Source: Myxococcales bacterium (GTDB taxonomy: Bacteria > Myxococcota_A > Polyangia > Haliangiales > Haliangiaceae). From it: a stretch of 64,000 nt of DNA. The translations under genes were made by a program, and so were the position numbers. The notes under the pieces are model-generated. The model was given only the letters and a program-made list of their open reading frames with translations. It was not told the origin of the DNA and made no database searches. Numbering within the stretch: the first letter of the stretch is position 1; each line of letters begins with the position of its first letter. This document shows, piece by piece, positions 14,815-25,902 of this stretch. The stretch covers positions 1 to 64,000 of the forward strand of contig JADKKI010000014.1 of the NCBI GenBank assembly GCA_016720595.1, read 5' to 3'.

Positions 14815-15083
14815 TTCTTCTCGGGGACGTGCATGAAGTCGCACGCCCGGAGATCGTCGAGGCTCTTGGCCTGGATCGCGCACTCGACGGCCTTCTTGCT
14901 CGAGCCACCGCGACAGCGCCGGACCTCGCCCTGGATGTCTCCATCCTTCGAGAGGAACTCGGTGCCCAGGAGCGACTGCATGTTGGCGAGTGCCTTGCGG
15001 CAATCCTCCTCGCTCGGCTTGCTGCAGCCGACGCCGAGGCCGAGGCCGAGGATCAATCCGAGGCTCGTGATGACCTGCTTCAT
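14811..15083 (-). CDS. Small Cys-containing lipoprotein
   Basis: 90 residues: [20 protein letters not shown] is a lipoprotein signal with Cys at 20, followed by a mature part with further cysteines in SEEDCRKALANMQSL, EVRRCRGGSSKKAVECAIQA and LDDLRACDFM. Four or five spaced Cys suggest a disulfide-stabilised periplasmic helical bundle. The start was taken at 15083 because that ATG overlaps the TGA of the upstream gene; an in-frame ATG two codons earlier is possible. Not recognised beyond this; short lipoproteins with regularly spaced Cys are common in this window. Confidence 0.7.
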   Translation of the reverse strand: MKQVITSLGLILGLGLGVGCSKPSEEDCRKALANMQSLLGTEFLSKDGDIQGEVRRCRGGSSKKAVECAIQAKSLDDLRACDFMHVPEKK

Positions 15084-15904
15084 GACCATTCCTTCGTCGC
15101 GGACTGTACCAGCTGCCGTGCGCTCGCGAGATCCTGTCCGGTATCGATCTCTCGCCACTGACCGTCGATCAGGATCGGATCGATCCGGATGCCCGAGTCG
15201 ATCAAGGTCTGCCACAGATCGGTCTGGTACGCATTGCGGAACGTCGCCGCCCGCATGAACGGATCGTGCTCTCGCCCCGCGAACTGGCGCGCGAGCTGAT
15301 CGATCGTGTTCGCCACCGTGGAGGCGCCGCGCTCGCCGAGGCGCGCGAGGCCGATGTACTCGCCCACCGCGTCCTCGGGCGGCAGCGCCCGCTTGCCGAC
15401 CCGGGCGACCGAGCCATCGTGCATCAGATCCGAGACCTCGCCCTCCTCGAGCGGATGCTCGGTGCGGCCGACGTAGATGTCACGGAACTTTCGATCGATC
15501 ACCAGCCCGATCTCGGCGGTCGAGGCGGCCGCGGCCTTGGCCACGGCCGGCGTGAAGATGATGTCGGAGTAGGTCAGGTACGTGGGCTGATCGAGGAACT
15601 TCCGCGCGCAGGCCATCGAGAGCAGCACGTTGTTCGACTGCCACTCCGGGTTGTCGACGAACGTGACCTTGGGCACCAGCTGGCGCACGAAGGTCTCGAG
15701 GACGTCGCCCTTGTAGCCGCGGATCACCACCAGCTCGTCGACCCCGGCGGCCGACAGCGCGGCCCACACCCAGCCGAGGATCGGCCGAGCACCGACCTGC
15801 ACCATGCATTTCGGGATCTCGTCGGTGTGCGTGCCGAGGCGCTTGCCGCGGCCCGCGGCGATCAGGATCGCGCGGCGGATCGGAGGATTCGTGGTGACGG
15901 TCAT
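15080..15904 (-). CDS. Nucleotidyltransferase of the LicC/inositol-phosphate cytidylyltransferase type
   Basis: 274 residues. [24 protein letters not shown] carries the NTP-binding G-x-G-x-R-x-G loop and the PKxM motif; [12 protein letters not shown] and [15 protein letters not shown] with [10 protein letters not shown] (metal-binding Asp) complete the NTP-transferase fold. The pattern resembles choline-phosphate cytidylyltransferase LicC and the cytidylyltransferase half of bifunctional IPCT/DIPPS. Its gene overlaps, by ATGA, the CDP-alcohol phosphatidyltransferase just upstream. The simplest reading is that this enzyme makes a CDP-activated alcohol that the membrane enzyme then transfers. 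The alcohol (inositol, choline or another) cannot be decided from sequence. Confidence 0.8.
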
Positions 15905-16656
15905 GGTGGGGGGCTCGCGGGCGTGGGGACGTGGCCGAACCGGCCGAGGCGGAACAGGATCGCGGCGAACGTCTTGGCGAAGTACAGCGCGTTGACGCCG
16001 GCGTACGCCCAGAAGAACACGTCGATCCGGTTCGCGAGCGCGCAGATCCACAGGTACTGCGGGTAGTGCACGACGATCCGCGCGAGGAACTCGAGCACGG
16101 TGAGCGCCAGGCCGATCGGTCCCTTGCGTCCGCCGACCTCCGCGGGCTGACCGTCCTCGGTGGGCGGCTTCGCGCCGTACTCGGGCCGCCGCGTGAACGT
16201 GGTCAGTGACAGGCCCGCAGCGAGGCAGAACAGCGCCCCGATCCCGACGAGCAGCAGGCGCACGTCACCACCGCTCTCCCACCACACCCGGACGGTCACC
16301 GCCCCGAGCAACAGCATCGCCTTCAGCTCGTCCATCAGGAAGTCGAGCTGATGGCCGAGCGGCGAGGCGATCTTGCGCAGCCGGGCGAGCATGCCGTCCG
16401 CGCAATCGAGGACGAACGAGAACTCGAACACCAGGGCGGCGGCGACCAGCCACCAGTACCCCGGCAGGAAGATGAACATCGCACACGCGCCGGCCGCGAC
16501 CACGGCGGACAGGAACGTCACCTGGTTCGGGGTGATCGGCGTCCCGCGGAGCAGCCAGACCACGAGCGCTGCCGGAGGCCGGGCGACCCACTCGGTGAAC
16601 CAGTTGATGTCGCGCTTCTTCTTGGAAGAGCGATAGATCTCGACGACCGAGGGCAT
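15901..16656 (-). CDS. CDP-alcohol phosphatidyltransferase family membrane protein
   Basis: 251 residues with several membrane helices ([53 protein letters not shown]). The family signature D-x2-D-G-x2-A-R-x8-G-x3-D-x3-D is complete: [20 protein letters not shown] followed by LDFLMD, near residues 85-110. Such enzymes transfer a phosphoalcohol from a CDP-alcohol to a lipid or polyol with release of CMP, at the inner membrane. As first gene of a four-gene overlapping operon, and coupled to a cytidylyltransferase, it looks like a split version of bifunctional inositol-phosphate systems or a specialised head-group pathway. Confidence 0.85.
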
Positions 16657-16722: not shown

Positions 16723-18369
16723 TCAATTGAGCTTGGTCGACGAGCGGCGCGCCGGATCGCGCGGCTTGATGCCGCCGAGCAGGTAGGTGGTCATCAGGCC
16801 CTTGCCCTTGACCTCGATCGGCGCCCGCTGCTCGAGCTCGAATTCCTCGCGGATCAGGGTGAACGTGGCCTCGCTGACGTGGATCCGGCCGGGAACGCCG
16901 GTCGATTCCATGCGGCTCGCCGTGTTCACGGTGTCGCCCCACAGATCGTAGATGAACTTCTTCTCGCCGATCACGCCGGCGACCACCGAGCCGGAGTGGA
17001 TGCCGATCCGGATCGTGAGATCGGAGCCCGCCTTCGCGGCATAGGCGGCGATCGCGGCGTTCATGTCGAGGGCCATGTGGGCGAGGGCGATCGCGTGATC
17101 CGCGATCGGCTGCGGGATCCCGGCCACCACCATGTACGCATCGCCGATCGTCTTGATCTTCTCGAGGCCGTGCTTCTCGGCGAGGCGATCGAACGTGGAG
17201 AACAGCTCGTTGAGCATGGTCACCAGCTCCTCCGGGCTCGTGCGCGACGACAGGGCGGTGAAGCCGACGATGTCGGCGAACAGCACGCTCACGGACTCGA
17301 ACCGATCGACGATCAGGTTCTCGCCGCCCTTGAGCCGATCCGCGATCGCGCCGGGCAGCACGTTGAGGAGGAGGCGCTCCGAGGTCAGCTTCTCGGCGGT
17401 GAGCTCCTTGGTGCGCTGGATCACGAGCTCCTCGAGGTGCTCGCTGTGCTCCTGGATCGTCGCGGCCATCGCATTGAAGTTCTCGCCGAGCTGGCCGATC
17501 TCGTCGCGGGTGAACACGCGGGTGCGCGCGGAGAAGTCCTTGTCGGCGAACCGCTTCACCGTGTTCGTGAGCGCGAGGATCGAGCGCGTGAGCACCGTGC
17601 CCATCGCGATCGAGACCAGGAGCGCGAGCGCGATCATCGCCACCGAGATCTTGATCGCGAGGCCTCCCGCCGCCGCGAGCGCCGCGCGCATGTTCTTGTC
17701 GGTGATGTCCACGCCGAGCACGCCGAGGCAGCGGCCCTTGGAGTCCCGGAGCGGCGCGCCGTCGGGCGCGGCCAGCGGCGTGTACGCGGACACCGAGTTC
17801 ACGTTGAACACGGGGTCGTGGACGAACTCGGTCTCCATGGTCGGCGCGCACTCGGCGAGCGCCTGCTTGAGCAACGGTATCTCGGAGACGTCGTAGGTCT
17901 CGTTGTAGTGGGAGATGTCCTCGCCCTCGGGCAGCGTCTCGCCGCGGGCGACCTTGGCCAGGAGCTCGAGCACATCGGCGTCGACCACGAACTTGGGGTT
18001 GTTCGGATCCTCGGTCGGGGACAACAAGTACACGTAGTGGATGAGGTCGGGTTCGGCGCCGCGGATCATCCGCAGCTGCTCGTAGATCCGCTTGTAGTCC
18101 TCGGTGTGCTCGGCCTTGGACACCGCGTCCTCGTCGAGCGTCCCCAGCCCCTCCTCGAGCCGCCGGTAGCCCTCGGCATCCACGGCGTGAGCGCCGACGT
18201 GGGTCAGATCGCGCAGCCGGTCGCGCAATTCGTCGGCGAGCTTGCGCTCGACGAACCGGTACAGGAACAACGCCAGGAGCACCGAGACCAGAGAGCTGAC
18301 CCCGAAGAAGGCGATGGTGATCTTCCGACGAAGGCGCACTCCCCGGACGGACCCTATCACCACTCGCAC
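16723..18369 (-). CDS. Membrane-bound class III adenylate/guanylate cyclase with HAMP domain
   Basis: 548 residues from GTG 18369. N-terminal helix ITIAFFGVSSLVSVLLALFLY (about 17-37), periplasmic sensor of about 190 residues ending VFNVNSVSAYTPLAAPDG (dCache-like), second helix KISVAMIALALLVSIAMGTV, HAMP linker with RSILALTNTVKRFADKDF, a coiled coil and then the cyclase domain. Catalytic positions visible: metal-binding Asp in VSVLFADIVGFTALSSRTSP and in IKTIGDAYMVVAG, and DLWGDTVNTASRMES with the Asp and Asn-x3-Arg of active cyclases. It should make cAMP (or cGMP) in response to an extracytoplasmic signal. It diverges from the SIR2-TPR gene with 93 bases between starts, so the two may share control. 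Confidence 0.9.
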   Translation of the reverse strand: MRVVIGSVRGVRLRRKITIAFFGVSSLVSVLLALFLYRFVERKLADELRDRLRDLTHVGAHAVDAEGYRRLEEGLGTLDEDAVSKAEHTEDYKRIYEQLRMIRGAEPDLIHYVYLLSPTEDPNNPKFVVDADVLELLAKVARGETLPEGEDISHYNETYDVSEIPLLKQALAECAPTMETEFVHDPVFNVNSVSAYTPLAAPDGAPLRDSKGRCLGVLGVDITDKNMRAALAAAGGLAIKISVAMIALALLVSIAMGTVLTRSILALTNTVKRFADKDFSARTRVFTRDEIGQLGENFNAMAATIQEHSEHLEELVIQRTKELTAEKLTSERLLLNVLPGAIADRLKGGENLIVDRFESVSVLFADIVGFTALSSRTSPEELVTMLNELFSTFDRLAEKHGLEKIKTIGDAYMVVAGIPQPIADHAIALAHMALDMNAAIAAYAAKAGSDLTIRIGIHSGSVVAGVIGEKKFIYDLWGDTVNTASRMESTGVPGRIHVSEATFTLIREEFELEQRAPIEVKGKGLMTTYLLGGIKPRDPARRSSTKLN

Positions 18370-18462
18370 TACCCCTGGCGGTTTCGCTTGCGAGCCGGAG
18401 GGTCCCTGGATAGGGTGCGCGCGGGTAAGTTCGTTTCAACACTCAAGACACTGGGGTTTAGG

Positions 18463-21400
18463 ATGCCTGAGCACACGATCCCCGAGTCCCTCATCGATCA
18501 GATCCGGACGGGCAAAGCTGCCCTGGTCGTCGGTGCGGGCATCGGAGTCCCTTCCTGGAAGCAACTGCTGGAGCGCCTGACCAAGGCGCTCGAGACACGG
18601 GGTCGCGAAGGCGACGACGTGGCGACCAAGGATCTCGAGAAGCTGCTGCACAAGGGCAGCCTCGTCCGCGCCGTCGGCTTCCTCGCCCGATCCCTCGGCG
18701 AGGAGACCTGCGACAAGATCGTCGAGGAGATGTGGGCCGCGCCGGTCGAGACGCCCGCGCTCCCCAAGGCGCTCGCCTCCCTGCCGTTCCGGCACATCTG
18801 GACCACGTTCCCGGGCGACATCCTCGAGCACGCGCTCGAGACGCAGTCGCCCGCCGAGTGGCCGAGCGCGCGCATCGTCACGTACCAGGAGCTCGGCGAG
18901 CTGTCGCCGCGCCGCCGCACACTGGTCAAGATGCTCGGCAACTTCGACACCTACGTGGTCACGCCGAACTCGGTGCGCCGCGCCCTGTCGCGCGCCGTCG
19001 ATCTCAAGGACTACGCCCGCAAGCTCTATGTCGAGGGCTCGCTCGTGTTCGTCGGGTTCCGCTACGGCGATCCCGATCTGTCCGCGCTGCTCGATCGCGT
19101 GTTCGGCATGTTCGAGCCGCCGCGCGGTACCCACTACTTCCTCGGCGCCGGCGTCGGCCCCGTCACGATCGACGAGCTGATGGCGGATCACCACATCGAG
19201 GTGGTGAACCTGGCCGGCCGCGGTGGCGACGAGGTCGCCGAGCGCTCGGTGCTCGAGTGGCTCGATTCTCTGCGCGAGACCTGCCGCACCGCCGGCGTCA
19301 CGCTGTCGCAGGCGCGCCCGGACTCGGATGACGTCGAGGGCTGGATCGCGCTGCTCGGTGAGAGCGGCGATGAGGGCTCCGAGGCCCGCGATGCGCTCGA
19401 TCTGATCGAGCGCAAGGCCCGCGATGCCAGCGACTGGGAGAACGTGATCGAGGTGCTGCTCGGCAAGATCGAGCACGCCGGCGATGGTCCGGATCGCGCG
19501 CAGCTGCTCCGTCAGCTCGCCGAGGTCTACGAGACGGGTGTCGGCGATCTGCGCCGCGCCTTCGAGGCCGTGACCACGGCCTGCCAGGTCAACCCCGAGG
19601 ACGACGAGGCGGCCGCGATGGCCGAGAAGCTCGCCGCTGCCACGGGTGGCTGGGCCGACCTCGTCCAGGAAGGTTCGGAGATCGCGACCGATGCGCAGGA
19701 TCCGAAGGTCGCCTCCAAGTGGTGGGCCCGGCTCGGCGCCTGGTACGCGCAGCGGCTCGATCGCATCGACTACGCGCTGCCCTCCCTGCGCCGTGCACTC
19801 GAGCTCGACGCCAACAACGGCATCGCGTACAAGGCGCTCGCCGAGGCGCACCGCAAGCAGCAGAAGTGGGCGGATCTCGCCGACACGCTGCGTGCCCACG
19901 CCGAGATCGAGACCGACACGCAGGCCAAGGTGGATCTGCTCCTCGGGCTCGGCGATCTCCTCGAGAGCCAGCTCGCCCAGACGGCGAAGGCCACCGAGAC
20001 CTATCAGCAGGCCGCGGATCTCGACGATTCGTCCGATGACGCGCTCGCCGCGCTCGAGCGGCTGTACCGCCGCGACGAGCGGTGGGCGAACCTCGCCAAG
20101 GTGCTCGAGCGCCGCGCCGAGATCGCCGAGGCGCACGGCGACAAGGGCCGCTCGGCCGCGCTCCGCCGCGAGCTCGGCACGATGCGCGCCGAGAAGCTCG
20201 GTGATCTCGAGGGCGCGATCCAGCGCTACGAGGCCGCCGTGGCCGCCAACGGCAGCGATGCCGCCGCGCTGAAGTCGCTGGTCGATCTGTACGACAAGAC
20301 CGGCCGCACCGATGACTACCTCCGCACGATGGAGCGGCTCGCGGTGGTCGCGCCCGAGGGCGAGAAGCTCGCCACGCTGCGCAAGCTCGCCGCGGAGCTC
20401 GAGGATCGCGATCCGGCCCGCGCCGGAAGCGCATACGAGAAGCTCCTCCAGGCCGATCCGAATGCCGACGATGCGTACCGCGGGCTCGAGCGCGTGCTCG
20501 AAGGCCAGGAGAGCTGGCATCCGCTGGTGAACCTGTACGCGCGCCACATCTCGGCGGCGAAGACCCCGGCCCAGCGCGTCGAGCTCTATCTCGGCGCCGC
20601 CAAGGTCTACGAGACCAAGCTCGACGATCAGATCAAGGCGATCGAGAGCCTGCTCAACGTGCTGGCGATCGAGGATCAGAACCGGACCGCGCTGTCGGTC
20701 CTGCCGCGCCTCTACGTCAAGACCGAGACCTTCGATCGCGCGGTCGACGTGCTGACCAAGCACGCGGCGCTCGAGGGCGATCGCGGCGCGCCGCTCTATG
20801 CCGAGGCCGGCAAGATCGCGTTCGAGCAGCTGCTCGATCCCGAGGTCGCGCAGCGGCACTATGACAAGGCGCTCTCGCTCGATGCGGAGCACTACGGCGC
20901 CCTCAAGGGCCTCGCCGCCGTGCACGAGTCGCGCGCCAACGTCGGCCAGGCGGTGGAGCTGTTGCTCCGCGCCGAGGCTGCGTCGGGGAACCGGATCGAT
21001 CGCGTCGAGCTGCTGTGGCACGCCGCGCAGCTCGCGGACACCCGCTTGAACGATCCGAGCCGTGCGCTCGAGCTGTACGAGCGCGTGCTCAAGCTCGAGC
21101 CCGATCACGTGCTGGCCGGTCAGCAGGTCGCCGATCAGCTGGTCGCCGCGAAGCGGTGGGACGATGCGCTCGGCGTGCTCGAGATGCTCGCCCGCCAGGC
21201 AGAGGGGCTCGATCAGAAGGAGCGGAGCCGCCGCGAGGCGCAGCTCGGCAAGGCGTACGAGGCGCTGCACCGCACGGAGAAGGCGGAGCAGCACTATCGC
21301 CGCGCAGTCGAGGCCAACGCGGACAACCTCGACGCGGCGATCGGGCTGTCGACGGTGATGATGCTCGAGGCCAAGGCGGGCGAAGGCACCGAGGCCACCA

Positions 21401-23397
21401 CGGCGAAGTGGATCGAGATCGACAAGCGGTACCGCGAGATCCTCGCGCGCCACCGCACGGCGCTCTCCGATGCCCAGGTCGCGGACATCTGGTACCGGCT
21501 CGGCGTCACGGCGCGTGCGCAGGGCGAGGACAAGAAGGCCGAGGCGAACTTCCGCCGCGCGCTCGAGAAGGAGCCGCTGCACGAGGCCACGCTCGAGGCG
21601 ATGGTCGAGCTCGGCGGTCAGCGCGGCGAGTGGAAGATGGTCGCGGACGCCAAGCGCGCCCAGGTGGATGCGGTCGCGAAGGCCGCTTCGTCGGCGACCT
21701 CCGAAGCTCGGCAGGCGAAGCTGTACGAGGAGATCGGCGACGTCTACAGCGAGCGGCTGAAGGACGTCAACTCGGCCGTCGATGCGTACCAGGAGGGCGT
21801 CAAGCTGTCCCCGAGCTCGCGCGTGCTGCTGCACAAGCTGCTCGAGGCGTACACCGAGCAGAAGAGCTGGAAGAAGGCGATCGACGCCCTCGATCACCTC
21901 TCGGCGCAGGAGACCAGCGAGGATCGCCGCGCGCGGTTCCACTACACCGCCGCCGTGATCGCGCGCGACGAGCTGAAGGATGCGGACCTCGCGGTCGATC
22001 GCTTCAACGCCGCCCTCGACGACGCGCCGTTCACGCCCAAGGCGTTCGACGCGATCGACGCGGTGCTCAGCGAGAAGAAGGACTGGAAGAACCTGGCCCG
22101 GGCCTACCGGCGCCAGCTGAAGCGCATGGGCGAGGACGCCTCGCCCGACAAGATGCTCGAGCTGTGGACGCGGCTCGGCGACATCTGCCTCGATCACCTC
22201 GGGGACACCGAGGCGGCCACCGAGGCGTACCAGGTGGCCTGCGAGCTCGCTCCCGACGATGTCGCGCGCCACGAGCAGCTGGCGGACCTCTACCTCGAGG
22301 CCGGCGAGGCTCGCCGGGACGAGGCGATCGCCGAGCTGCAGTACCTGCTCGGCCACGCGCCGGATCGCGTCGAGCTCTACAAGGCGCTCGCGAGCCTGTA
22401 CCGGGCGGAGCACGAGCTCGACAAGGCGTTCTGCGTCGCGCAGGCGCTGGTGTTCCTCGGCGCCGCATCGGACGAGGAGAAGGGCCTCTATCAGCGGCTC
22501 CGTCCGCTGCAGTTCACGCCCGCACCGCGCCGGCTCACTGAAGAGCTGTGGCAGAAGTCGATCATCCACCCGAAGGAGGATCGCCACGTCGGCGCGATCT
22601 TCTCGTCCACCCTCGGCGCGCTCGCCGCGGGCACGGCCCAGCCGATCACCGCGTTCGGGCTCACCCCCGAGACCCGCACGGATCTCGATCGGGATCCGCG
22701 CACGGTCAGCCGTATCGTCAAGTACGTCTCGGGCGTGCTCGCGATCGATCCGGCGCCGATGGTCTGGCTCCAGGAAGGTGGCGATGGCCTCCGGGTCGCG
22801 AACACCGTGGGCCTCGGAGCCGAGCGCCAGCGGCTGGTGCCGACGCTCCTGGTCGGCGCACCGCAGATCACCAAGACCGACGAGCGCGAGCTCGCGTTCG
22901 AGGTCGGCAAGCGCATGGCCTACTTGCGGCCCGAGCGGTTCGTGACGCTCGCCGTGGGCACGCTACCCAAGCTCGAGGCCGCGTTCGCGGCATCGGTGCT
23001 CGCGGGTGGCGCGCGCGTGGTGTCGGAGGATGGGACGCCGTACTACGACCAGACGACCGATGAGGCGCGGAAGCTCGCGGGCACGCTCAAGACCCAGGTC
23101 CCGGGGCCGCTCCTCGAGCAGGTCGGCGAGCTCTCGAACAAGCTCTCGCACCGCCTCGGCAACGGCCTGATCCCGGGCTGGCGCACGGCGACGGACCTCA
23201 CGGCCAACCGCGTCGGTCTGATCGTGTCGAACGACCTCGAGACGGCCGCCAAGGCGATCGCGACCGAGGGCGCGGCGATGTCGAACCTGTCGGTCAAGGA
23301 CCGCCTCCGTGATCTCCTCGCGTACTCGGTGAGCGAGCAGTACTTCACCGTCCGTCGCCACCTCGGACTCCACGTCCGGGGCGAGGCGACGGCGTGA
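18463..23397 (+). CDS. Giant protein: SIR2-like domain lacking catalytic residues, long TPR array, conserved C-terminal domain
   Basis: 1644 residues. Residues 1-290 have the SIR2-like (SIR2_2) pattern: AALVVGAGIGVPSWKQLLE with the G24-A-G NAD loop, FRHIWTTFPGDILEHALE, LVKMLGNFDTYVVT and LVFVGFRYGDPDLSALL. The position that is Asn in active enzymes (TTNxD) reads TTF-P-G-D (114-119), and the KLHG His reads KMLG (156-159). Residues about 300-1330 are TPR and TPR-like repeats of about 34 residues (for example RLGDICLDHLGDTEAATEAYQ). The last 270 residues (AFGLTPETRTDLDRDP, VGKRMAYLRPERFVTLAVG) form a domain I associate with large myxobacterial TPR proteins. ATG 18463 is the first start after the divergent cyclase. 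Likely cytoplasmic scaffold; role unknown. The stop overlaps the next gene. Confidence 0.85.
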   Translation: MPEHTIPESLIDQIRTGKAALVVGAGIGVPSWKQLLERLTKALETRGREGDDVATKDLEKLLHKGSLVRAVGFLARSLGEETCDKIVEEMWAAPVETPALPKALASLPFRHIWTTFPGDILEHALETQSPAEWPSARIVTYQELGELSPRRRTLVKMLGNFDTYVVTPNSVRRALSRAVDLKDYARKLYVEGSLVFVGFRYGDPDLSALLDRVFGMFEPPRGTHYFLGAGVGPVTIDELMADHHIEVVNLAGRGGDEVAERSVLEWLDSLRETCRTAGVTLSQARPDSDDVEGWIALLGESGDEGSEARDALDLIERKARDASDWENVIEVLLGKIEHAGDGPDRAQLLRQLAEVYETGVGDLRRAFEAVTTACQVNPEDDEAAAMAEKLAAATGGWADLVQEGSEIATDAQDPKVASKWWARLGAWYAQRLDRIDYALPSLRRALELDANNGIAYKALAEAHRKQQKWADLADTLRAHAEIETDTQAKVDLLLGLGDLLESQLAQTAKATETYQQAADLDDSSDDALAALERLYRRDERWANLAKVLERRAEIAEAHGDKGRSAALRRELGTMRAEKLGDLEGAIQRYEAAVAANGSDAAALKSLVDLYDKTGRTDDYLRTMERLAVVAPEGEKLATLRKLAAELEDRDPARAGSAYEKLLQADPNADDAYRGLERVLEGQESWHPLVNLYARHISAAKTPAQRVELYLGAAKVYETKLDDQIKAIESLLNVLAIEDQNRTALSVLPRLYVKTETFDRAVDVLTKHAALEGDRGAPLYAEAGKIAFEQLLDPEVAQRHYDKALSLDAEHYGALKGLAAVHESRANVGQAVELLLRAEAASGNRIDRVELLWHAAQLADTRLNDPSRALELYERVLKLEPDHVLAGQQVADQLVAAKRWDDALGVLEMLARQAEGLDQKERSRREAQLGKAYEALHRTEKAEQHYRRAVEANADNLDAAIGLSTVMMLEAKAGEGTEATTAKWIEIDKRYREILARHRTALSDAQVADIWYRLGVTARAQGEDKKAEANFRRALEKEPLHEATLEAMVELGGQRGEWKMVADAKRAQVDAVAKAASSATSEARQAKLYEEIGDVYSERLKDVNSAVDAYQEGVKLSPSSRVLLHKLLEAYTEQKSWKKAIDALDHLSAQETSEDRRARFHYTAAVIARDELKDADLAVDRFNAALDDAPFTPKAFDAIDAVLSEKKDWKNLARAYRRQLKRMGEDASPDKMLELWTRLGDICLDHLGDTEAATEAYQVACELAPDDVARHEQLADLYLEAGEARRDEAIAELQYLLGHAPDRVELYKALASLYRAEHELDKAFCVAQALVFLGAASDEEKGLYQRLRPLQFTPAPRRLTEELWQKSIIHPKEDRHVGAIFSSTLGALAAGTAQPITAFGLTPETRTDLDRDPRTVSRIVKYVSGVLAIDPAPMVWLQEGGDGLRVANTVGLGAERQRLVPTLLVGAPQITKTDERELAFEVGKRMAYLRPERFVTLAVGTLPKLEAAFAASVLAGGARVVSEDGTPYYDQTTDEARKLAGTLKTQVPGPLLEQVGELSNKLSHRLGNGLIPGWRTATDLTANRVGLIVSNDLETAAKAIATEGAAMSNLSVKDRLRDLLAYSVSEQYFTVRRHLGLHVRGEATA

Positions 23398-24209
23398 GGC
23401 TCGGACGGCTCGCCATCGTCGGCGGTCTCGTGTCCTCGACGGTCGCGCTGTCGTGCGGCGACGATGGTCCGCCGGTGTGCCCGACGGGGAACTGCACCCT
23501 GGACGGCAGCACGATCGTGAAGTGGAAGTTCAACCACTTCCCGATGCTCGGCTTCGACAGCGATGCCTGCTCGGACCTCGGCGTCATCACCGTGCGCGTC
23601 GAGCTCTCGAACGTGGCCGATCCGTCGGTGATCACCGATTCGATGGACAAGGGCTGCGGCGAGGGGCAGGTGACGTTCCTCGGCCTGCCGGCTGGGACCT
23701 ACAAGGCCGCGGTCACGCCGCTCGACGTCGACGGCAACTCGCTCGTCACCGCACCCGTGGTCGTCATGGGGAACGCGGCGGCTGCGGGCACCACGCTCGA
23801 GATCCCGGTCGACGTGAATCACCCCGCATGGGCCCGGCCGTACACCGGCCAGCTGCTGTTCCGCCTCAAGTGGGGCGGGATGACGTGCGCCACGGCCACG
23901 CCGCCGGTGGTCAACCAGGTGCTGACCCTCACCGCAGGTGGCACGGTCCGGACCGAGAGCACGAGCATCGACAACGTCGTGTTCCAGAAGCTCGATGGCA
24001 CCGACCCGCAGATGTGCCGGGCGTTCACCGATCCGTTCCCGCAGAACGTCGCGGGGCTGCCGTTCGGTCCGGCCACCCTGCTCGTGATCGGCAAGGACGC
24101 GACCGATGTGGTGGTGTTCCAGAACACGTTCAGCACGTTCATCGGCGCTGGCGTGTTCAATCCCACACTCACGTACGACCTGGTCGACGCGGGTGTGGAC
24201 GCGATGTGA
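23394..24209 (+). CDS. Lipoprotein of unknown function
   Basis: 271 residues from GTG 23394, which overlaps the TGA of the TPR gene. LAIVGGLVSSTVALSC is a lipobox-containing signal peptide. The mature part is beta-rich with about eight cysteines (DDGPPVCPTGNCTLDGS, DSDACSDLGVITVRVELSN, GMTCATATPPVVNQ) and Ig-like strands: FLGLPAGTYKAAVTPLDVDG resembles a 'LPAGxYxxxxxxxD' carboxypeptidase-regulatory-like fold. No enzymatic motif. Coupled translation with a cytoplasmic TPR giant suggests only shared transcription. A standing alternative is a structural outer-membrane lipoprotein. Confidence 0.75.
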   Translation: MRLGRLAIVGGLVSSTVALSCGDDGPPVCPTGNCTLDGSTIVKWKFNHFPMLGFDSDACSDLGVITVRVELSNVADPSVITDSMDKGCGEGQVTFLGLPAGTYKAAVTPLDVDGNSLVTAPVVVMGNAAAAGTTLEIPVDVNHPAWARPYTGQLLFRLKWGGMTCATATPPVVNQVLTLTAGGTVRTESTSIDNVVFQKLDGTDPQMCRAFTDPFPQNVAGLPFGPATLLVIGKDATDVVVFQNTFSTFIGAGVFNPTLTYDLVDAGVDAM

Positions 24210-24222
24210 CATCCTCTACGGG

Positions 24223-25902
24223 ATGCGCCTGACGCTCGCCGTGGTCCTCGCTGCCACGGCGGCGTGTGGCGCAACGAGCCATGTCGTGACGGCGGCGAGC
24301 AAGGTGCCGCCACCGCTCCCGGCGCCGCTCACGCTCGATGGTCGCGCCCGGGGGGCGGTCTATCTGACCGCCGTCGGGCAGCAGCTCCAGCCCCCGTGGG
24401 CCCAGTTCCTCGAGGACTGTCGGCTGCGGCTGCCGATCACCCACCCGCTCAACGCCGCGAACCTCGAAGCGCGCGCCGAGCTCGCGATCGATCGGGCCGG
24501 CAAGGTGGTCGTGGTCTCGGTCACGACGTCCGGGCTCGCGGACTTCGATCTCGCTGTCCGTCAGCTGCTCGCCGATGCGACGCGTTTCGGGGTCCCGCCG
24601 CTCGACCTGGTGTCCGACGACGACAAGCTGCACGTGCGCTGGCTGTTCGCGCGCGACCGCCGGCAGGCCGGCCCGGCGACCGCGGAGATCATGGATGTCG
24701 AGCTCCCGGTGCTCGCCGTGACCGAGAAGCTCCTCGCGGCAGGCGACCTCGCCCGCGCGGCACGGCGGATCGCGGCCGCGAAGGCCGGCGCCGCGGACCG
24801 GGACACCGCTGCCGAGCGCGTCATGATCGCCGCGCTGCGCGAGGCGCTCGGCTCGACGGGGGCGGCGGCGCGAACCTCCGCCGTCGAGGCCGCGGGGCGC
24901 ACGGGCGCGCACGCACTCGCGTCTCAGATCCGTGGCTTCCTCGCACCCACTGTGGACACCGAGCTCCGCCTCGCAGCGGTGGTCACGGCCGCCACGCTCG
25001 GCGATCAGACCGCCGTGCCGATCATCGCGCGCCAGCTCCCTGCCGATCTCGCAAACTATCCACGCCTCGCCCTCGCCGAGACCGCGGCGCTGCTCCAGCT
25101 CGGAGCTCGCGACGCGGCGGCCGAGGCGATCCAGCACGCCCTCGAAGCCGACCCGAAGACGCCGATGGTGGTCGCGCTCCAGGCGCTCGCCCTGGTTCCG
25201 ATCCCTGCGATCGCACCGAAGCTCGCCGGCTGGTTCGCGAAGGGGGACGCACGGACCCGCGCCGGGGTGTGCGCGGCGGTCGCCGCCGATGTGCCGGCGC
25301 CGGCGTTCGTGATGCGCGGGCTCCGTGATCCCGACGCCACGGTACGCGCCACGTGCGTGGACGCGGCGGGACGTCAGGGCAGGGCGCGCGCGCAGCCCGC
25401 GATCGTTCGCCGCCTGCGCGAGCTCGCGCTCGATCGCGATCGCATGGTGCGCGCGCGGGCCGTCGCCACACTCGCCGTTCTCGACACCGCTCGTGGGCTG
25501 CGGGCCGCGACGGATCCCTCGCCCGAGGTCCGGGCCGCCGCGATCGCGAGCGCGACCGAGGCCGAGCTGCGCACGATGCTCGCCGATCCGGATCCGGACG
25601 TCCGCGCCGCGGCGGTCGCTGCGCTCGTCGATCGGGCGCCCGAGCTCCTCGCGCGCGCCGCGTCCGATGTCGCGCCTCAGGTCCGCCGCGCCGCGATCAC
25701 GGGGCTGTCGGACGAGGAGGCCCTCACGCGCCTCGCGGCCGATGTCGCGCCCGAGGTGGCCACCGACGCGCTCGTCGCGCTGGCTCAGCACCGAGGTCGC
25801 GCGGCGATGACCACGCCGCTGCTCGTACAGCTCGCCTCGGCGCCAACGGGGAGCGCCGAGCGCGTGCGGATCGCGCTCGCGTGGCTCCTCGCCCGGCCGT
25901 AG
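24223..25902 (+). CDS. Lipoprotein with TonB-like N-terminal region and HEAT-like repeats
   Basis: 559 residues from ATG 24223, 13 bases after the previous stop. MRLTLAVVLAATAACGATSH has a lipobox-type Cys at 15. Residues 60-130 (ARAELAIDRAGKVVVVSVTT, DLAVRQLLADATRFGVPPLD) resemble the strand-helix-strand of TonB C-terminal/energy-transducer domains. From about 180 to 545 runs an alpha-helical array of HEAT/PBS-lyase type repeats, including VMRGLRDPDATVRATCVDAA, TEAELRTMLADPDPDVRAAA and RAASDVAPQVRRAAITGLS. Such arrays bind proteins. The mix of a TonB-like module and HEAT repeats in one lipoprotein is not a standard architecture. Likely cotranscribed with the genes upstream. Confidence 0.75.
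   Translation: MRLTLAVVLAATAACGATSHVVTAASKVPPPLPAPLTLDGRARGAVYLTAVGQQLQPPWAQFLEDCRLRLPITHPLNAANLEARAELAIDRAGKVVVVSVTTSGLADFDLAVRQLLADATRFGVPPLDLVSDDDKLHVRWLFARDRRQAGPATAEIMDVELPVLAVTEKLLAAGDLARAARRIAAAKAGAADRDTAAERVMIAALREALGSTGAAARTSAVEAAGRTGAHALASQIRGFLAPTVDTELRLAAVVTAATLGDQTAVPIIARQLPADLANYPRLALAETAALLQLGARDAAAEAIQHALEADPKTPMVVALQALALVPIPAIAPKLAGWFAKGDARTRAGVCAAVAADVPAPAFVMRGLRDPDATVRATCVDAAGRQGRARAQPAIVRRLRELALDRDRMVRARAVATLAVLDTARGLRAATDPSPEVRAAAIASATEAELRTMLADPDPDVRAAAVAALVDRAPELLARAASDVAPQVRRAAITGLSDEEALTRLAADVAPEVATDALVALAQHRGRAAMTTPLLVQLASAPTGSAERVRIALAWLLARP

Follow-up and report, generated by a model that had tools for sequence, protein, structure and literature searches.

SIR2 NADases of the fold considered here are best known as immune enzymes. 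In Thoeris, ThsA carries a SLOG domain and stands beside the TIR-domain protein ThsB, and the SIR2 NADases DSR2 and KomC have their catalytic residues in place, as is also reflected in the H171A and H146N mutants named in the titles of structure entries. Pseudoenzyme scaffolds are a known kind of protein as well. In active relatives, SIR2 domains of this fold assemble into tetramers and filaments; excerpts of one paper describe filaments of ThsA, Avs5 and FAM118 and indicate that filament formation is apparently needed for activity (PMC12700824). For Avs5, excerpts of another paper state that the Asn and Asp of the TTNxD motif are needed for defence and that the His can be Asn (PMC12931631).

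Gene and domain organization

The window we analysed is a 64,000-nucleotide stretch of DNA from a Myxococcales bacterium, and the gene in question (18463-23397, + strand) encodes a protein of 1644 residues. Codon-position GC of 0.74/0.44/0.92 favours this frame, and a long antisense ORF (18436-22587; 0.92/0.43/0.74) fits less well. The protein consists of a pseudo-SIR2 domain (18463-19302, +; residues 1-280), a TPR array (19360-22422, +; about residues 300-1320) and a C-terminal domain (22450-23394, +; residues 1330-1644) that belongs to no Pfam family and is predicted to be a degenerate M48-like gluzincin. A Pfam scan gave a SIR2_2 match at residues 111-230 and many tandem TPR matches above cut-off, and the best PADLOC match of the protein was ThsA, over residues 8-227. 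We found no strongly hydrophobic segment in the protein, and an Rfam scan of the window returned no match.

Altered motifs of the SIR2 domain

Two structure models were made, each of a single domain as a single chain. The model of the N-terminal domain has a SIR2 Rossmann fold with a small helical subdomain, of the ThsA/KomC/DSR2 kind. The preliminary description had both catalytic positions replaced, with the GAG loop and the DPD end kept. The replacements were confirmed: TTFPGD (18802-18819, +; residues 114-119) has Phe116 in place of the catalytic Asn and Gly118 in place of the TTNxD Asp, and KMLG (18928-18939, +; residues 156-159) has Leu158 in place of the catalytic His. As to the kept features, the GAG letters and the DPD end are indeed present, the latter in GFRYGDPD (19054-19077, +; residues 198-205), where Arg200 replaces the GFS Ser, but the NAD loop, GAGIGVPSW (18532-18558, +; residues 24-32), is missing its Ser and is four residues shorter than in KomC or E. 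coli ThsA. Set against the hallmarks of SIR2-like NADases, the protein thus lacks the catalytic Asn/Asp, the HG His (or the Asn of the Avs5 type) and a full-length GAGxS loop. In the alignment with ThsA, His224 falls at the HY, and the ThsA Asp position is taken by the residue that follows KMLG. An Asn and a His elsewhere in the pocket would have spoken against the proposed loss; in the alignments no invariant Asn or His fills the lost places.

Motif loss among relatives

We compared 121 close sequences, these being the window protein and the best 120 of 245 homologues, and none has either the catalytic Asn or the catalytic His. Position 116 is Phe in 120 and Tyr in one, position 158 is Leu in 112 and Phe in nine, P117, G118 and R200 are invariant; conservation also extends to the GAG letters and to DPD at the end of the closing motif. 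With 245 homologues, a pseudogene or a peculiarity of a single genome was ruled out. Scanning genomes gave 26 close loci, and in an alignment of 24 of these with the window F116, P117, G118 and L158 are invariant; at one locus, L025, GAG is wholly lost and WTTFPGD is kept.

In a survey of the class, 78 of 289 genomes had matches; weaker matches were left aside, and 33 fused loci (L057-L089) and seven stand-alone SIR2 proteins (L090-L096; 491-722 aa) were fetched. We scored 40 fused domains, namely the window protein, six of the 26 close loci and the 33 class-survey loci. The class-wide alignment shows the catalytic Asn in none of the 40 and the His in four; the GFS Ser is present in 2/40, GAGxS in 5/40 and the TTNxD Asp in 24/40, and no fused member has all four motif residues. 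All seven stand-alone proteins from the same class sample have the four scored motif residues and the TTNxD Asp.

A wider SIR2 profile matched 108 of 377 phylum genomes, and twenty further phylum regions, mostly with long ORFs, were fetched and yielded 23 SIR2 ORFs. In the seven that have the C-terminal domain too, the Asn is missing throughout and the HG His never occurs, the HG site being a gap in six and Phe in one. Among the 16 ORFs without the C-terminal domain, seven retain both TTN and HG; among the other nine are TPN variants, ORFs reading TTG or TTE, and L161 and L162, which lack the Asn and may be cut members of the fused family. A branch of the fused family (L143, L144, L145, L147, L148 and L149; ORFs of 2060-2408 aa) apparently misses the HG segment in the alignment. 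At L155, L156 and L157 two SIR2 ORFs are adjacent; the longer (1518-1525 aa) looks dead, with TTG or TTE and KLCG, the shorter (466-474 aa) shows TPN together with KINGT or KLHGT, and the two may represent a dead/active SIR2 pair. A profile search with the family alignment returned 67 proteins; these seem to be fragments of this family, and none was an evident active relative.

Across the orthologues compared, the Asn is missing in 121/121, 40/40 and 7/7 sequences, and the His is kept in L065, L066, L077 and L078. Because these four are already without the Asn, the alignments suggest that the Asn was lost first and the His later.

Comparison of the window protein with ten relatives showed the SIR2 part to be more identical than the TPR part in 10/10 pairs, and more identical than the C-terminus in seven of the eight pairs having both, the exception being L016 (SIR2 83 and C-terminus 85 per cent identity). 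With a dN/dS of 0.10-0.39 (simple method, dS partly saturated), the domain is, on its sequence, under purifying selection. That it is dead and yet well kept argues for a non-catalytic role, and it seems to have been disarmed early and then held under strong constraint in a near-core gene. The catalytically dead scaffold of the preliminary description is borne out by the Asn loss in all members aligned, the loss of both residues in the 121 close sequences and the purifying selection, as far as sequence can do so.

The C-terminal domain

At the place of the M48 HExxH motif the protein has KRMAY (22909-22923, +; residues 1483-1487). The C-terminal domain gave an M48-like signal in a profile comparison against controls, among them a kinase profile that includes one row (L105) taken from the wrong ORF. 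Foldseek alone gave no significant match (best E 0.36), with a narrow alignment of the C-terminus there was no M48 match (score 18.15), and the C-terminal profile found nothing among PDB sequences and no family in Pfam, with scattered single weak matches only. The first zinc-ligand His is absent at the aligned M48 site in all 40 rows; a HExxH string occurs elsewhere in two of them. From these alignments the domain appears to resemble a degenerate M48 peptidase without zinc ligands. It is found in 193 of 377 phylum genomes (E 1e-10) and in 30 of the 33 fused class loci, L059, L067 and L069 being cut by contig ends, and is thus a widespread, conserved domain without a Pfam entry.

Other proteins with the C-terminal domain

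Among the fetched members with this domain are giants of TPR-only build, whose complete ORFs span 3372-4063 aa, as well as shorter ORFs that are TPR-only, proteins of the SIR2 type and eight proteins with a kinase head. In a tree of the C-terminal domain the eight kinase rows group as a clade (100/98), as do 32 of the 35 SIR2-type rows (98/100); L025, L077 and L078 lie outside the SIR2 clade on long branches, and a single origin of all 35 is allowed (p-AU 0.41). We considered whether the kinase relatives represent the same locus with a swapped head and rejected this, as lipid genes occur at 0/8 kinase loci within fetched stretches reaching only a few kb beyond the gene. Among seven readable kinase heads (L104, L106-L110 and L115, with L105 left out) the HRD Arg is replaced in all, the catalytic Asp is lost in L106 and the DFG Asp in L115, and DFG itself reads DAG, DPG, DGG or DFG or is lost. 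Because the HRD Arg is replaced and DFG varies, this type of head may, judging by its motifs, be partly degenerate as well. In the TPR-only loci L097, L098, L103 and L114 a class III cyclase ORF lies in convergent orientation at the 3' end of the TPR-only ORF; that of L114 has only 1342 aa, and the cyclase ORF of L098 starts, by eye, with an FHA-like domain.

A tentative wider picture, which we think more apt to fail than to hold in full, is that Myxococcota possess an undescribed family of giant scaffolds in which a swappable N-terminal module (dead SIR2 NADase, EAD7-like plus kinase, or none) is joined to a TPR array and a dead M48 domain, and that in a Kofleriaceae-like clade the dead-SIR2 version became a near-core hub, with the former NADase as an envelope-tied assembly module.

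Genome distribution and neighbouring genes

The gene is present in 28 of 30 family genomes, with a single match in 26 of the 28; the second match is a 33-codon fragment in one of the remaining two and an equally scoring copy on another contig in the other. The two family genomes without the gene do carry the C-terminal domain. Directly downstream lies a 271-aa ORF for a putative lipoprotein (23394-24209, +; signal and lipobox by eye), whose GTG start lies in a 4-bp overlap with the stop of the gene. Where at least 0.9 kb of downstream sequence was in hand, a relative of this lipoprotein was found at 18/18 close and 10/27 distant loci. Next to the lipoprotein gene is a 598-aa ORF (24106-25902, +) with HEAT repeats and a TonB C-terminal match barely above cut-off.

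On the other side, a divergent CDP-alcohol phosphatidyltransferase gene (15901-16656, -) adjoins one for a MobA-like nucleotidyltransferase (15080-16051, -; true start probably inside the ORF). At loci with at least 1.5 kb of upstream sequence, the former is found divergent within 5.5 kb in 16/22 close and 12/31 distant cases and was not found upstream in 6/22 and 19/31, and the latter is found upstream in 14/22 and 10/31. These conserved neighbours, lipid genes and lipoprotein, point weakly to an envelope link. The wider window is ordinary: seven of ten further ORFs scanned had Pfam matches, to a carbamoyl-phosphate synthase large chain, an EF-G-like GTPase, CcmF, a MoaA-like protein and three protein kinases.

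Discussion

We consider the best explanation, with a probability of roughly 0.55, to be a near-core cytoplasmic scaffold in which a non-catalytic SIR2 assembly module is joined to partner-binding TPRs and a zinc-less M48-like module. The SIR2 domain would have kept its fold and lost NAD hydrolysis, most likely with NAD binding as well, and would now serve for assembly or docking; the TPR array would bind partners, and a second non-catalytic binding module would be provided by the M48-like domain at the C-terminus, devoid of its zinc site. Because the residues needed for cutting are lost in the relatives checked yet the SIR2 domain is closely preserved, the giant myxobacterial protein is probably a structural hub and not an enzyme. 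NAD hydrolysis is very unlikely from the motifs, because the TTNxD Asn and Asp that Avs5 needs are both lost here. By analogy with active relatives we infer that the SIR2 fold may oligomerise, and we also infer partner binding, an absence of NAD binding and a link to the envelope or to lipid genes.

The first alternative to weigh, unlikely in our judgement, is a conflict or antiphage component in which the dead SIR2 would be an adaptor recruiting an active effector. Such systems contain SIR2 and EAD7 modules, and kinase N-termini were found in 8/8 sister proteins scanned, with sub-threshold EAD7 matches in 5/8; EADs belong to bacterial conflict systems, according to excerpts of PMC8195603. The gene is, however, near-core in its family, its neighbours are partly conserved, and a search at E 0.001 of the 28 family genomes with it turned up no further SIR2 of this type. 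PADLOC showed no defence cluster among the ten neighbours (the cyclase in its right frame being outside the scan), and its two partial matches fit generic domains: SduA was hit over 62 residues within a receiver domain (E 6e-7), mad2 over 135 residues within a methyltransferase (E 1e-15). No TIR or ThsB was found among the neighbours scanned with Pfam and PADLOC. The antiphage link raised earlier thus gains no support.

We regard as distinctly unlikely a non-catalytic sensor whose pocket would bind NAD or a related nucleotide and switch the TPR scaffold. An intact predicted fold and the GAG letters and DPD end shared by the close sequences would fit this. The loop, however, is four residues short and without Ser, the TTNxD Asp is Gly118, the Asn and His are replaced, an invariant Arg stands at the GFS Ser in close sequences, and L025 has dispensed with GAG while keeping WTTFPGD. 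Because of the loop and Gly118 in particular, NAD sensing as put forward in the preliminary description is disfavoured for the window's clade.

That the protein scaffolds cyclic-nucleotide signalling as a cyclase partner is improbable, at long odds. A divergent HAMP and class III cyclase gene (16723-18369, -) is found in the window and at nine close loci, eight of the 22 with at least 1.5 kb of upstream sequence plus L015, which has less, and another cyclase lies beside four of the seven TPR-only paralogues with the 3' end in hand. The divergent cyclase occurs, however, at 0/31 distant loci with that much upstream sequence, and a cyclase match at only 4/22 of loci L097-L118. Because it is found at 8/22 close but no distant loci, we take it to be a local neighbour, less widely conserved than the phosphatidyltransferase, and the suggested cyclic-nucleotide or starvation link is improbable.

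A hidden NADase, with other residues replacing Asn and His or a partner SIR2 completing the domain as in FAM118A/B, is scarcely credible: excerpts of the two papers cited above report that Avs5 tolerates Asn for His (PMC12931631) and that FAM118 paralogues need each other (PMC12700824), but the Asn and Asp on which, in the former, Avs5 defence depends are both gone here, and the 28 family genomes showed no partner SIR2 of this type (E 0.001, in a search confined to this SIR2 type and so excluding classical sirtuins).

The scaffold reading makes this family a clean test of what roles the SIR2 fold has outside NAD chemistry. Caution in annotation is also called for, as some database records carry the protein as 'SIR2 family' or 'golgin subfamily B member 1', and it scores as ThsA with a defence-gene model.

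A literature search, with most subscription journals outside its reach, found no description of such a protein. DSR2 and KomC are NADases without the M48-like domain predicted for the window protein, and SAMD9/SAMD9L and Avs5 carry a P-loop or STAND NTPase, none of which was seen here. M48 peptidases of the BepA type also combine with TPRs, but in reversed domain order, and unlike them the window family has no first zinc-ligand His and no signal peptide was seen. Human FAM118B keeps Asn163 and His206, which according to excerpts of PMC12700824 are needed for activity; both are lost in the window protein. As for Thoeris, its PADLOC model matched 0/10 neighbours and no SLOG domain is among the 17 Pfam families listed for the protein. 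ThsA (6LHX, 8BTO, 7UXT, 8WC0) keeps GAGxS, TTN and HG, whereas the window protein does not, and where ThsA has SLOG the window protein has TPRs and a predicted M48-like domain.
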